This document shows, one piece after another, positions 9,314 through 38,253 of a DNA stretch of 43,394 bases. The translations under genes were made by a program, and so were the position numbers. Source of the stretch: a virus; the IMG/VR virus record IMGVR_UViG_3300020005_000016, positions 1 to 43,394 of that record; one strand, given 5' to 3'. Each line of letters begins with the position of its first letter. Position 1 is the first letter of the stretch. Below the pieces are notes generated by a model. It searched no databases. It was not told the origin of the DNA and saw only the letters and a program-made list of their open reading frames with translations.

Positions 9314-9498
9314 TACTTTTTTACTGGCTTATATGGGACGTAAATAAAGATTGGTGCACGGACCTCGCATTTACCAGAGATTCTGATTGGGCCAGTTGTA
9401 GGGCACGAACTACCAGGCTTTACCAATATTCGTTCTATTCTGGGCATATTTGGAAGAATCATTAGACCTAAAACCATCATTATTGTCAAGTATTTCAT
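9313..9498 (-). CDS. 61-residue secreted or membrane-anchored small protein on the strand opposite the virion genes
   Basis: It starts with a hydrophobic signal-like segment (MKYLTIMMVLGLMILP) and continues as a basic, Pro-rich tail with two cysteines (SSC and GKC). A Shine-Dalgarno sequence AGAAAGGA lies just upstream, and a consensus promoter is at 9517-9545 on the same strand. It is encoded against the direction of the surrounding virion genes, so it is probably an independently expressed accessory gene (moron). Superinfection exclusion or envelope modification are plausible roles but are not shown. Confidence 0.7.
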   Translation of the reverse strand: MKYLTIMMVLGLMILPNMPRIERILVKPGSSCPTTGPIRISGKCEVRAPIFIYVPYKPVKK

Positions 9499-9516
9499 AA
9501 GTTCCTTTCTGTAGAT

Positions 9517-25002: not shown

Positions 25003-25233
25003 TTATAGGCTCTCAATATACCTCTTAAAGTTGGCCAGTCCAGCCTTTAATTCTTCGCTATTTTCGGGGTTCATTTTAGCTATTCGCTCTCCCATCTGGT
25101 AAAGCTGCTTGAGTGCAGCCAATCCGAACAGCCTATCGTTTGGGTCTTTGGATTCGGCCCATTCTTTTGCTTCCTTAAACAGTCGGGCCATATCTGGGCT
25201 ATTGGTTGTAGTAACTTGGGGGTGGTTCGGCAT
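25003..25233 (-). CDS. 76-residue helical protein after the DnaB-like gene
   Basis: It begins MPNHPQVTTTNSPDMARLFK and is helical and charged (KEWAESKDPNDRLFGLAALK). It overlaps the end of the DnaB-like gene by 35 bases and precedes the stem-loop at 24955-24974. A helicase-associated role is possible from position only. Confidence 0.6.
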   Translation of the reverse strand: MPNHPQVTTTNSPDMARLFKEAKEWAESKDPNDRLFGLAALKQLYQMGERIAKMNPENSEELKAGLANFKRYIESL

Positions 25234-26095
25234 AGGTTATTTTAACTTCCTGCAGCCTGCCGTCACGCAGTTCGGCTTTTATAAATTTAGTGTATCCAGT
25301 TCGGCGATTCTTTTGCAGCGAGATGCGGGAAAATGGGGTATATACGTCTCCCTCTGGCTCATCATCCTTAGTGGCCCACTTCGGTTTAGTGGATTTTACT
25401 TTGATGCGTTCGACCATAAACACGAAGTCAGATTCTTGCGGGATGCCAACCGAATGGGCGATGTCTTCAACGTCCAGGCTCTCTTTGGTCTTGCGTGTGT
25501 GTGCCAGTAGGACGATTATAATATTATGCTCCATAGCTAGGGTCTTGAGCTGGCGGGTAAGCTGCCCTAGATATGAGCTAAAGTTTTGGTCAAACTCACG
25601 GGCATTTGATTCATCCACGTCTGGGGTCAAAAAGCCCAGGTGGTCTATAAAAATTACTTGGGTCTTGTGCTTGAGTATCGTTTCTAAAATTTTCTGTTTA
25701 ATCCAAGATAGTTTACCGCCTTTGTTTGGTTTTGGAGCGTAGGCTTTGAAGTCTTCGGCCTTGATTCCCATATCTTTGAACTTGTCCCAAAGGTCTTTGA
25801 CGGTCAGCTCATAGCTGAACCAGGCTGTTGGGATTCCTATTTGACTTAAATGGTAGTTTATGGTCTGGGCAAAGGTAGTTTTACCCTGTCCAGTGCGTCC
25901 AGATATGAGCACTAAGTCACCGCCAGAAATTCCGCCTTTCATCACTGAATCGAATATCTCAAAACCAATCGGGAAATGGTCTTGCGTGCCAATTTTTGCT
26001 GCTTCTTCGGCAGCAATTTCGGGTATCAACTCCATCGTGGAGTCGGCGGTAAGTTTCTCGACTTGGTTCAGGTCTGGGATTTTATCGAAGTCCAT
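25199..26095 (-). CDS. DnaB-like replicative helicase (C-terminal ATPase type)
   Basis: This is a 298-residue RecA-fold ATPase. Walker A is SGRTGQGKTT (65-74), Walker B is VIFIDHL (147-153), a sensor-like LLAHTRK follows near 196, and a C-terminal basic loop reads LQKNRRTGY. The family signature of DnaB C-terminal helicases is visible, but the usual N-terminal domain is missing. This suggests a small phage helicase that is loaded by, or cooperates with, the host machinery. It follows the replisome-organiser-like gene, which fits an initiator-helicase pair. Confidence 0.85.
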   Translation of the reverse strand: MDFDKIPDLNQVEKLTADSTMELIPEIAAEEAAKIGTQDHFPIGFEIFDSVMKGGISGGDLVLISGRTGQGKTTFAQTINYHLSQIGIPTAWFSYELTVKDLWDKFKDMGIKAEDFKAYAPKPNKGGKLSWIKQKILETILKHKTQVIFIDHLGFLTPDVDESNAREFDQNFSSYLGQLTRQLKTLAMEHNIIIVLLAHTRKTKESLDVEDIAHSVGIPQESDFVFMVERIKVKSTKPKWATKDDEPEGDVYTPFSRISLQKNRRTGYTKFIKAELRDGRLQEVKITYAEPPPSYYNQ

Positions 26096-26099
26096 AGTT

Positions 26100-26522
26100 T
26101 TAATTTAATAATATTTGCGGGTTTTCTAAGATGTTTTCATACAGGGTTTTTCCACCACGCTGTATAGCATAAGGCAAAAATATCTGTTGCATCTGGGCCA
26201 TCTCAATTTCAACTAAAGCCATTTGCACGTCCACCCAGTCTCGCAGGATTCTCCAGGCCACTCGATAGGAATAATCATCATCACTGGCTCTTGGGTTGCC
26301 TTCTTTGGCCATAACCTTTTGAGCAGCACGCCAATTAAGGGGTAGCTTGAAGGCAATCTTTTGTTCACCGATTACCATTTGAAAAGCTAAACCAGAAATT
26401 CTGCCAGTGCCTTGTTCAAATTCAGTTAAAATCCCTGAAGCTCCGTGTTTTTGAAGCATATCCTGTATTTCTTGCACGGACCTGGCTGCTGGAACTTTGG
26501 TTGTATAATTTTTTAGGGCCAT
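26100..26522 (-). CDS. Conserved-type phage replication-region protein
   Basis: This 140-residue protein has the pattern YSYRVAWRILRDWVDVQMAL, then VEIEMAQMQQIFLPY and GGKTLYE. I know this as a recurring hypothetical near phage replication genes. It lies between the initiator-like and DnaB-like genes with abutting ends, so a role in replication is likely. Its biochemical function is not known. Confidence 0.7.
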   Translation of the reverse strand: MALKNYTTKVPAARSVQEIQDMLQKHGASGILTEFEQGTGRISGLAFQMVIGEQKIAFKLPLNWRAAQKVMAKEGNPRASDDDYSYRVAWRILRDWVDVQMALVEIEMAQMQQIFLPYAIQRGGKTLYENILENPQILLN

Positions 26523-27244
26523 TAAACTTCGTTAATAAATTTTGCCACAGTTTCGAGCGTCCACTTGTATTCAGCTTTGGCTTGGAGATAATCCATAGTT
26601 TTCATTATTTGCGTAGCTGGGTAGCCTTCCAACGCTTTAGCTGCCCGTAGTTCACGCTTCAAAGTTGCGGACATTGCGGATTTTGTGGGGAAGTTTATGC
26701 CTTTAACTCGCCAGTAAACGGAAATAATCTGAATGAAGGGTCTTGAATCACCTTGCATATAGGCAATGTATTTTTCTGAATCCCAATCTTCCGCAGCCAC
26801 AGGCTGCAATGTATTCTTATCTTCTCTTATCTTATCTATTCTATTGGGGGTGGACACTGTCCCTTCATCTGGGGTGGACAATGTCCTCTCTTGGTTATAT
26901 TTGGCTCTATATTTGGCTTTTTTCTCGGCTTCGGTGAGATAACCAGCCTGTCTTTTTTGAAAATGTGAGATTATAACCTCATCATCGTTCAGTTCAATCA
27001 TTTCCAGAGCCTCAAACTTTGTGAGCACTCCGACAACCACGTCCCATTCCTCGGATTGAAAGTCTAATCCCGATGCCAGCATTAGCTGTTGTTCTGTTAA
27101 ATGCGGAATTATTCCTGGTGTTGTGGACTGGCTTGCCAGACAAAGCAAAGTTATCCAACAACTCCGTTGACCAGAGTTCAGCCCAAATATCTTTGGGTCA
27201 GATAGATACTCACCGCCATAAAATTTGAACCAGGGTAAGGCCAT
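26522..27244 (-). CDS. Phage replisome organiser/DnaD-like replication initiator
   Basis: This 240-residue protein is the first gene of the leftward operon. The N-terminus (MALPWFKFYGGEYLSDPKIF) is the typical start of phage replisome-organiser winged-helix domains; a LNSGQRSCWITLLCLAS helix follows. A charged linker with KRIDKIREDK-like basic residues leads to a DnaD-like helical end (QIMKTMDYLQAKAEYKWTLE). Such proteins bind the origin and load DnaB. The divergent region at 27245-27734 is the natural candidate for its binding site. Confidence 0.8.
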   Translation of the reverse strand: MALPWFKFYGGEYLSDPKIFGLNSGQRSCWITLLCLASQSTTPGIIPHLTEQQLMLASGLDFQSEEWDVVVGVLTKFEALEMIELNDDEVIISHFQKRQAGYLTEAEKKAKYRAKYNQERTLSTPDEGTVSTPNRIDKIREDKNTLQPVAAEDWDSEKYIAYMQGDSRPFIQIISVYWRVKGINFPTKSAMSATLKRELRAAKALEGYPATQIMKTMDYLQAKAEYKWTLETVAKFINEV

Positions 27245-27271
27245 ACTACACCATAAATGTTAATTTTTTCC

Positions 27272-27404
27272 AAACAAAAGCCCTACTATCAACGGCTTTG
27301 GAAAGTCGTTTGCCATCAGTATTTGAATACTTATTGGCTGACAGTAGGGCTACTGGTCAGAAATTTCTGTATAAAAAAATACTGATTTTCGGACCTTCCA
27401 AAGC
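27272..27404 (-). promoter_or_regulatory. Structured leader RNA of the leftward operon, candidate attenuator
   Basis: Read leftward, three pairs interlock. Pair A is 27404-27392 with 27307-27295 (13 bp). Pair B is 27386-27377 with 27324-27315 (10 bp, perfect). Pair C is 27350-27339 with 27291-27280 (12 bp), then TTTTGTTT (27279-27272). Pair C crosses A/B, so the terminator-like C stem and the A/B stem are alternatives, or form a pseudoknot. The single imperfect position in A and in C is G-U in the leftward RNA but A-C in the rightward RNA, favouring the leftward transcript. The predicted +1 (27405) is the base before arm A. An origin-associated repeat is the other reading. Confidence 0.6.
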
Positions 27405-27411
27405 TGCAATT

Positions 27412-27440
27412 ATTATGGCCCTAGATAAACCAGTCGTCAA
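27412..27440 (-). promoter_or_regulatory. Main leftward promoter of the replication operon
   Basis: Leftward: TTGACG (27440-27435), 17-base spacer, CATAAT (27417-27412), five of six matches in each box. Predicted +1 is an A at 27405. It drives the leader RNA and then the initiator-like gene at 27244. Only a degenerate version of the 12-bp operator overlaps its -35 box. Confidence 0.75.
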
Positions 27441-27487
27441 CCCCGTATTTATACACATATCCCCAGGTTTATCCCCATTGTTTGCGT

Positions 27488-27516
27488 TTGACAACCAGAT
27501 TAAAAACCATCAGAAT
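27488..27516 (+). promoter_or_regulatory. Rightward promoter of the divergent region
   Basis: TTGACA (27488-27493), 17-base spacer, CAGAAT (27511-27516; four of six). The -35 runs into ACAACC, one half of the operator seen elsewhere. Predicted +1 falls on the A of the ATG at 27523. It would feed the leader peptide, the terminator at 27561-27600 and then the rightward arm. Confidence 0.6.
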
Positions 27517-27522
27517 ACCCGT

Positions 27523-27567
27523 ATGAACAGCTTTGGCCAAAAAGTTAAAGTTCAAGTTACCCCGTAA
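27523..27567 (+). CDS. Candidate 14-codon leader peptide
   Basis: It reads MNSFGQKVKVQVTP then TAA. Its ATG coincides with the predicted transcription start, so it would be leaderless. Its stop codon (27565-27567) lies in the 5' arm of the terminator stem (27561-27571). A ribosome at the stop would cover that arm. The arrangement resembles translation-coupled attenuation; the evidence is positional only. Confidence 0.4.
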   Translation: MNSFGQKVKVQVTP

Positions 27568-27600
27568 ACTCGGCTTTTGAGTTTCGGGCTTTTATTTTTT
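27561..27600 (+). terminator. Terminator hairpin in the rightward leader
   Basis: CCCGTAAACTC (27561-27571) pairs with GAGTTTCGGG (27579-27588) with one bulged T around a seven-base loop, followed by CTTTTATTTTTT (27589-27600). It lies between the rightward promoter and the first rightward genes, so it must be bypassed for their expression from that promoter. Confidence 0.7.
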
Positions 27601-27605
27601 GGGCA

Positions 27606-27719
27606 GCAGTATAACGATTATTCGTTCTGCAAGGGGCAGACAAATTAAAACAGGGCTATTGCGAGTTTTGGCTTGAATCGGCCTTTTATACCGATAGCAA
27701 ATCGTCAACTTTATACTGC
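27606..27719. ncRNA. Nested inverted-repeat element before the first rightward gene
   Basis: GCAGTATAA (27606-27614) pairs perfectly with TTATACTGC (27711-27719). Inside are GCTAT (27655-27659) with ATAGC (27694-27698), and ATCGG (27677-27681) with CCGAT (27691-27695), the last two sharing two bases. There is no open frame of note. It may be a structured 5' leader, a small RNA or an origin cruciform. Confidence 0.4.
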
Positions 27720-27734
27720 CCCTCAAGAACTAAA

Positions 27735-28079
27735 ATGCTAAACGACAAACAGCTCGTCAAACTCAACGATGCAGCAGCAAACGAGGCTGTGATACAGGTC
27801 CTAATTTACAACTTCAGGAAGCGGGAAGGCATCGTGTTCAACAAAAAAGCGAATACGCTGGAATGTATCTGCCCGTTTTGCAAAGACAACGCATTAGTCA
27901 AGACTAAAAGCCATATTAACGTCCAACCATTCTATGCCCAATTCCCCCAAGAAATTAAATACCCAGGAGCAGCTCCGCAAAGATTTAACCGAGATGGTCG
28001 AGGGGATAATGCTCAACTTGGTCCAGCAAATTCGAGCAACTCTACTGGCAGCCAAGATTACCCCCCAAGAATTTTATGA
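27735..28079 (+). CDS. Small protein with a zinc pair; C-terminal part overlaps the next gene
   Basis: The first ~60 residues look genuine (MLNDKQLVKLNDAAANEAVI, then NTLECICPFCKDN with CxCxxC). The rest (about 67-114) is of low complexity and runs 146 bases into the 27934 frame, so it may be a coding shadow. The protein may act as a small zinc-binding factor. The start has no Shine-Dalgarno. Start and C-terminus both need support. Confidence 0.55.
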   Translation: MLNDKQLVKLNDAAANEAVIQVLIYNFRKREGIVFNKKANTLECICPFCKDNALVKTKSHINVQPFYAQFPQEIKYPGAAPQRFNRDGRGDNAQLGPANSSNSTGSQDYPPRIL

Positions 28080-37490: not shown

Positions 37491-37765
37491 CTGATTCAAA
37501 CCAGTTGGCAATGTTGGTCAGTTGTGACACGACTCCTGAAACGCAGGCTGCCACTTATCAAGTAGGCTGTATCTTAATCCGCACGGATAACGGAACACTC
37601 TATTCGATGACAGGCACGACAGCTTCCCCTTCGTGGACTCTAAACGGTGTTGGTTCAGTCGGACCTACTGGAGCTACTGGTTACAGTGGTTACACAGGAC
37701 GCACAGGCTACACTGGTTACACAGGTCCAACTGGGTATACAGGTTATACTGGCCCAGGTCCGTAG
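37421..37765 (+). CDS. Short protein with collagen-like C-terminal repeat
   Basis: From the ATG at 37421 the protein has 114 residues. A compact N-terminal part (MSAGAGTNFFTPLSGSTHTQ, then LAMLVSCDTTP) is followed, from about residue 82, by collagen-like triplets ([26 protein letters not shown]). It ends within the repeat. Collagen-like ends usually trimerise, so this could be a head or tail fibre bearing a Gly-X-Y stalk. The same repeat dominates the 40592-41899 fibre. Confidence 0.75.
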   Translation: MSAGAGTNFFTPLSGSTHTQIALTDSNQLAMLVSCDTTPETQAATYQVGCILIRTDNGTLYSMTGTTASPSWTLNGVGSVGPTGATGYSGYTGRTGYTGYTGPTGYTGYTGPGP

Positions 37766-37782
37766 TAACATTCGTTTTTCTC

Positions 37783-37835
37783 TCCCGCTCTCTTTTTCAG
37801 CTCCAAAAAAGGGCTAGTAAAACAGCAGAGCGGGA
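37783..37835 (+). promoter_or_regulatory. Long stem-loop before the 37870 gene
   Basis: TCCCGCTCT (37783-37791) pairs perfectly with AGAGCGGGA (37827-37835), nine base pairs, around 35 bases. It lies 34 bases before the next start. No T tract follows on the + strand, so a translational or stability role is as likely as termination. Confidence 0.5.
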
Positions 37836-37869: not shown

Positions 37870-38253
37870 ATGGCATTGCCATTTTCAACAAACGTAAATG
37901 TATTAGATGCTGTCACAGCGACAGTTGCTAATACTGCTGCAAAGGTTTATGACGTTTCTGAACGCCAAGTAAAATCAATCCAGTTTACGACTGCTAATCA
38001 TACTTCTGGGAATGGAGTATTCGGAGTAGAAGTTTCTAATGATGGTGTAAATTTCGTTGTTTACAGCCGATTGATTCCTAATTTAGCGGGAACTAACGCC
38101 CAAACCAACGCTGCAGTTCCAGCCCCAACACAGAGCACTAATACCAGTGCAATCTTTTTCTTCCCTGTAGAAGATTACTTTAGGTATGTCCGTGTGTTCG
38201 TAACCGTTACTACTGACGGAACTTATACAGCTACTTTGCAAGCAGCAGGTTAA
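37870..38253 (+). CDS. Beta-sandwich structural protein
   Basis: The 127-residue protein (MALPFSTNVNVLDAVTATVA) is beta-rich, with VEVSNDGVNFVVYSRLIPN and FRYVRVFVTVTTDGTYTATL. The pattern resembles phage structural Ig/discoidin-like domains used as tail or head adaptors. It starts without a Shine-Dalgarno (ATATATGGCA). The position within the head-tail joining segment fits a connector or decoration protein. Confidence 0.6.
   Translation: MALPFSTNVNVLDAVTATVANTAAKVYDVSERQVKSIQFTTANHTSGNGVFGVEVSNDGVNFVVYSRLIPNLAGTNAQTNAAVPAPTQSTNTSAIFFFPVEDYFRYVRVFVTVTTDGTYTATLQAAG

Follow-up and report, generated by a model that had tools for sequence, protein, structure and literature searches.

A candidate switching leader RNA with interlocking arms before the replication initiator genes of tailed phages

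The replication initiator gene of the virus record IMGVR_UViG_3300020005_000016 is preceded by a leader RNA in which inverted repeats interlock, and the same folding plan, with unrelated sequence, occurs before the initiator at no fewer than nine other loci. From the sequences and the modelled folds we propose, with moderate confidence, that the leader may be a bistable RNA switch that controls how much initiator is made, chiefly at the level of translation.

The window, by which we mean the whole stretch of 43,394 nucleotides that was analysed, is a 43.4-kb tailed-phage record encoding terminase, major head and tail proteins. Its operons diverge, and the cumulative GC skew has a minimum at approximately 27-28 kb. 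PF09681 (E <= 0.01) matched 11 of the 14 initiator homologues, and the initiator of the window itself scored under the gathering threshold. Searches with the initiator (tblastn) against INPHARED and PLSDB returned no relatives, so that no PLSDB plasmid record encodes one; DNA relatives of the leader region were not found in INPHARED, nor was a relative of the DnaB-like helicase in the viral contigs queried with it. One initiator relative sits in a Candidatus Nomurabacteria metagenome-assembled genome (MAG), from which Patescibacteria can be guessed as the host of the phage. When approximately 1160 genomes (three overlapping draws) were compared with this MAG, the only good match was the MAG itself, and therefore no further leaders were obtained from that source. 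The features used below are as follows, in window coordinates.

25199-26095, minus strand: DnaB-like replicative helicase gene, sharing an operon with the initiator (by homology)
26522-27244, minus strand: replication initiator gene (Phage_rep_org_N / DnaD-like / replisome organiser relatives; by homology)
27246-27254, minus strand: mini-ORF ATG GTG TAG, its stop 1 nt ahead of the initiator ATG
27262-27316, minus strand: possible leader ORF of 18 codons (MANDFPKPLIVGLLFGKN) covering A' and C', possibly by chance in the window phage
27272-27279, minus strand: U-run TTTTGTTT directly after C', candidate terminator tail in the window phage
27275-27293, minus strand: arm C', 3' half of the long hairpin (core 27291-27279), ending 30 nt before the initiator ATG
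27295-27307, minus strand: arm A', between C and C'
27312-27338, minus strand: local hairpin GCCAATAAGTATTCAAATACTGATGGC within C/C' in the minimum-free-energy (MFE) fold, with B' (27315-27324) in its 3' half
27337-27355, minus strand: arm C, 5' half of the long hairpin (core 27351-27339)
27377-27386, minus strand: arm B, nested within A/A'; no separate B pair was recognised in relatives
27392-27404, minus strand: arm A, at the start of the leader RNA (approximately +2 to +14), able to pair with A' in the C/C' loop
27412-27440, minus strand: sigma-70-like promoter TTGACG-17-CATAAT (-35 at 27440-27435, -10 at 27417-27412, predicted +1 at approximately 27405)
27449-27457, plus strand: exact DnaA-box consensus TTATACACA, just upstream of the -35
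27457-27465: DnaA-box-related site ATATCCCCA, two mismatches to the consensus
27469-27477: DnaA-box-related site TTATCCCCA, one mismatch to the consensus

The promoter agrees with 10 of 12 positions of the sigma-70 consensus, which is borrowed from other bacteria. On the leftward strand the arms follow in the order A-B-C-B'-A'-C', and C/C' therefore crosses both A/A' and B/B'. A/A' comprises 13 bp with one G-U and B/B' 10 bp; C/C' has a core of 13-nt arms (27351-27339/27291-27279) with one G-U, which extends to 19-nt arms with one mismatch (27355-27337/27293-27275). The linkers are 36 (A to C), 29 and 1 nt, and the loop between the arms of C/C' is 43 nt. Promoter, the three arm pairs, their crossing order and the U-run had all been named in the original prediction, and inspection of 27440-27245 confirmed each of them with its coordinates. 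The hairpin at 27338-27312, the exact DnaA box, the 18-codon ORF and the mini-ORF are additional to it.

Computation of minimum-energy and alternative folds, proposed together with the original prediction, relied on nearest-neighbour energies borrowed from other bacteria. The MFE of the whole leader was better than that of shuffled sequences (z = -3.97; 1 of 200 shuffles was equally good), and the two competing folds of the window were equal in energy (-53.2 vs -53.0). The best pair of crossing helices scored -52.7; shuffled sequences averaged -22.2, and none of the 300 did as well as the leader. In a scan of the genome with 160-nt windows on both strands, the leader ranked first of 4324 (-55.0, compared with a mean of -24.5 and sd of 3.8). 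Among balanced crossing structures in the genome, the one ranked second lies at 37743-37834 on the plus strand, before a structural-region gene at 37870 to which no function is assigned; here GTTATACTGGCCC/GGGCTAGTAAAAC occurs with TCCCGCTCT/AGAGCGGGA, and the hairpin loop likewise holds a strand complementary to upstream sequence.

Initiator homologues were gathered from viral contigs and MAGs, with the leader ignored in the selection. Interlocking arms were found before the initiator at L004, L009, L018, L025, L031, L032, L033, L034 and L047, that is, at at least nine loci besides the window, giving ten structured leaders with the window included. All follow one plan: a long C/C' hairpin stands close to the ATG, and the A' strand in its loop can pair with A, which lies near the 5' terminus of the RNA. 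Only this plan recurs, the arm sequences being unrelated between phages and too divergent for column-by-column covariation. A lies upstream of C and, for most of the leaders with a predictable promoter, within approximately 25 nt of the predicted transcription start; the linker from A to C is 0-1 nt in L004, L009 and L033. The 3' stem of C/C' ends 4-30 nt before the ATG, varying with the phage and with stem extension. The initiators of L031 and L033 are approximately 70% identical in their N-terminal domains and 66% across the whole alignment, and their coding DNA can be aligned from just 8 nt before the ATG; upstream of this, both keep A-C-A'-C' with different arms. Arms that change without compensation would count against the original prediction, and the opposite was found, as the arms differ while the pairing persists across relatives.

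We next consider whether such complementarity is expected by chance. With the hairpin chosen blind in 12 leaders, as the strongest near the start with A disregarded (in L018 another hairpin was picked), complementarity of the loop to upstream sequence exceeded that of dinucleotide shuffles (Fisher combined p = 2e-8). Individually, the window (p = 0.003), L004, L032 and L047 reached p <= 0.003, and the same test was not significant for L009, L031 and L033. Among the 283 ATG codons that open ORFs of 80 aa or more in the collected loci, a score of -40 or below was reached at 7 of 18 initiator starts versus 1 of 265 other starts (Fisher p = 9e-9), with the cut-off picked after the scores were seen and with spurious ORFs among the controls. 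The crossing scan, which allowed no mismatch, overlooked L033 and L034.

The leader is not essential to the gene, since in L002, L003, L019, L028, L036 and L037 the initiator stands behind another gene in an operon, with neither leader nor structure, and since L027 and L030, with short unstructured leaders, and L035, with a strong hairpin, have no convincing crossing pair even though the initiator of each has an upstream region to itself. L005 was marginal. Several loci showed features of their own. In L025 (2878-2995) a 21-bp perfect hairpin carries CCGCGCCCAAT in its loop, another copy follows its 3' foot ahead of the initiator ATG, and a second perfect hairpin adjoins the first, making this a distinct, repeat-containing leader variant. 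In L002, where the initiator itself has no leader, a near-perfect 21-bp hairpin with a loop-upstream match is found at approximately 9440-9510 before a small ORF. L018 (JAIYDJ010000120.1), the end of a contig assigned to a Rhodobacter MAG, carries an initiator of the window phage's family with a structured leader, and is either a misbinned phage or a mobile element.

The strand on which pairing is maintained was deduced from the wobble pairs. When helices were sought with G-U and A-C treated as equal, 21 G-U and 1 A-C were found on the sense strand (p = 1e-5), indicating that the pairing is under selection on this strand, most simply as RNA of the gene's polarity. The original prediction had remarked that the imperfect pairs of the window are G-U, not A-C, in the leftward RNA; this holds and can be generalised across the leaders. 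Together with the recurrence at the other loci in unrelated sequence, it bears out the claim of a regulatory leader RNA before the initiator.

That the leader has two exclusive folds, as also claimed, was supported in part. Competing folds are present, and exclusivity is forced in L004, L009 and L033, where the linker of 0-1 nt does not permit A/A' and the full C/C' to coexist; these three leaders also rule out a strict pseudoknot as a general model. In the window the 36-nt spacing of A and C would permit a pseudoknot, and on the modelled folds exclusivity is likely there. The C/C' fold was favoured by 8-45 kcal/mol in the full-length form of the nine other leaders. According to constrained folding, before C' is synthesised A/A' is the MFE structure or within 1 kcal/mol of it in the window, L009, L031, L032, L033, L034 and L047. 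For each of the ten leaders, positions -25 to -1 were predicted to be less accessible when C/C' is formed than when A/A' is, and the contrast was small in the window (0.58 vs 0.47), where the 30 nt from hairpin to ATG exceed the distance in relatives. Clear Shine-Dalgarno sequences are found at few start codons of the window phage, which leaves sequestration less defined.

These results are consistent with the following course of events. In the growing transcript A/A' would form first and represent the open state; once C' is made, the C/C' hairpin would take over as the closed state and cover the ribosome-binding region, the direction of control being the one we infer. Each new transcript would thus yield a limited burst of initiator, so that output would track promoter firing, which the upstream DnaA box may couple to the replication state of the host. 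Because the closed state is 8-45 kcal/mol more stable in most relatives, the open state would need kinetics, ribosomes or a factor, and the equal energies in the window would leave its switch poised. Where a leader ORF runs across the arms, ribosomes translating it could open the hairpin and then restart at the initiator gene. The U-run after C' could, in a few phages and perhaps in the window phage, let the closed state also end transcription.

This last point leads to the foremost alternative, a transcription attenuator in which C/C' with the U-run would be the terminator and A/A' (with B/B') the antiterminator, termination ahead of the initiator being regulated. We regard it as doubtful. 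The U-run immediately follows C' in the window, where the two folds are of equal energy, and U-rich tails follow the hairpin in L034, L047 and L032 as well, making approximately 4 of the 10 leaders; however, L004, L009, L025, L033 and L031 have no U-run despite an equally strong hairpin, the 43-nt loop of the window is long for an intrinsic terminator, and a consensus terminator scan, covering loops of 3-8 nt only, detected no intrinsic terminator in the window leader. Since the U-run is not conserved, a terminator is a local variant at most, plausible for the four leaders with U-rich tails and not for the rest, and the terminator which the original prediction assigned to one of the folds finds no support as a general mechanism.

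Control through a leader peptide in the style of the I-complex or IncFII plasmids is an unlikely alternative to the bistable switch. Here, ribosomes on a short ORF would remodel the arms and reinitiate, while an antisense RNA or a factor would set leader translation. ORFs extending from approximately +1 over all arms to the initiator start are indeed present in L031, L032, L034 and L047, and from a GTG in L018, and the plasmid precedent includes modules that have no leader gene (PMC5304414). For 4 of 10 leaders, an ORF begins with an ATG in the first 14 nt and ends at -15 to +12 (0.2 expected, p = 1.4e-5), a statistic that is only suggestive because leader lengths were set by hand. On the other hand, the window, L004, L009 and L033 contain no spanning ORF, the 21:1 bias toward G-U would prevent an antisense RNA from folding alike, and no antisense promoter was apparent by eye.

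An ATG 6-7 nt past the predicted -10 was observed in the leaders of L031, L032, L034 and L047 and at 27523 in the window, and the sequences suggest that leaderless starts are common in the hosts of these phages. The window site belongs to a divergent promoter on the plus strand (27488-27567; TTGACA-17-CAGAAT), whose ATG lies exactly 6 nt after the -10 and opens a 14-codon ORF, apparently a leaderless leader ORF belonging to the rightward transcript. To its 3' side are a hairpin (AAACTC..GAGTTT) and then T-rich sequence at approximately 27600. At 27590-27735 on the same strand, the inverted repeat TTTTATTTTTTGGGCAGCAGTATAA / TTATACTGCCCCTCAAGAACTAAAA (80%) has a 3' arm that abuts the start of the rightward gene at 27735.

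It is quite improbable that the long hairpin is an RNase III site, at which cleavage would serve to mature the initiator mRNA or to destabilise it while A/A' blocks hairpin and cutting. Near-continuous stems of approximately 15-35 bp occur in most relatives, but that of the window is interrupted. The lambda cIII and N leaders, early-gene leaders with alternative folds and RNase III hairpins, offer a phage precedent and, like the present leader, have a long hairpin and can form alternative structures close to the start codon; unlike them, the present leader stands on a different gene and has no sequence relation to them, and a role of RNase III in it is only putative.

It is very improbable that the inverted repeats are a DNA element, either dyads bound by protein or a component of a replication origin, with the RNA incidental: DnaA boxes lie upstream, the operons diverge and a GC-skew minimum lies near 27-28 kb, but the G-U excess on one strand is unexplained by dyads and led us to reject protein-binding ones, A and C differ in sequence inside one phage, and arms are unrelated even where initiators are 66-70% identical. 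The same strand bias and sequence turnover disfavour the origin role which the original prediction had offered for the repeats. An exact DnaA box (TTATNCACA) was found within 260 nt upstream in 5 of the 10 structured leaders (0.023 expected in each), and these boxes may belong to an origin. Between 26900 and 28000 no direct-repeat iterons were found, the direct repeats being merely two-copy and chance-like.

A search of Rfam with the window, nine relatives and the leader gave no match at E <= 1, and no description of such a leader was found in the open-access literature. The leaders of plasmid rep genes are its nearest working analogues. PMC10724649 cites the pseudoknot switch of repZ and the leader-peptide control of R1. 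In the plasmid precedent, rep expression follows translation of the leader peptide and not its product, and the leader gene is missing in some modules (PMC5304414). The REx-C modules of Pseudomonas RepJ replicons are, like the phage leader, portable control regions that precede the initiator and contain stem-loops and, optionally, a leader peptide; in contrast to the phage leaders, they are similar in sequence between replicons, and an antisense RNA is proposed (PMC5304414). The repY/repZ system of the I-complex (ColIb-P9) shares with the phage a structured leader on the initiator mRNA, pairing of a hairpin loop with a second segment of the leader, in some cases a leader ORF that stops at the start of the initiator, and proposed translational control. 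In the phage, however, the partner of the loop is the 5' end of the RNA, whereas in the I-complex it is a site beside the initiator start; the phage arms have no shared sequence, the carrier is a tailed phage and not a plasmid, no sequence-related initiator occurs in the plasmid records, and the G-U bias makes it less likely that an antisense strand would fold in this way. The rep attenuators of pT181 and pIP501 resemble the window leader in having exclusive folds before the initiator and, for the window only, a U-run after the 3' stem. They differ in that the phage leaders have no conserved terminator, that no countertranscript was found for them, and that A/A' and C/C' have no common segment and compete by topology.

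Tentatively, the leaders could constitute an undescribed class of phage leader RNA, defined by architecture alone, that governs initiators across diverse tailed phages; arms would drift while complementarity stays, and passage of transcription or of ribosomes, rather than a ligand, would flip the state. The conserved ligand-binding (aptamer) core required of a riboswitch is not present, as the leaders share no sequence and have no Rfam match. Because the folding plan is conserved and the sequence is not, such elements are missed by homology-based RNA searches such as Rfam, and the strand-symmetric G-U test combined with initiator-anchored comparison would reveal more of them. The leader offers a candidate switch ahead of phage DNA replication that can be tested directly.
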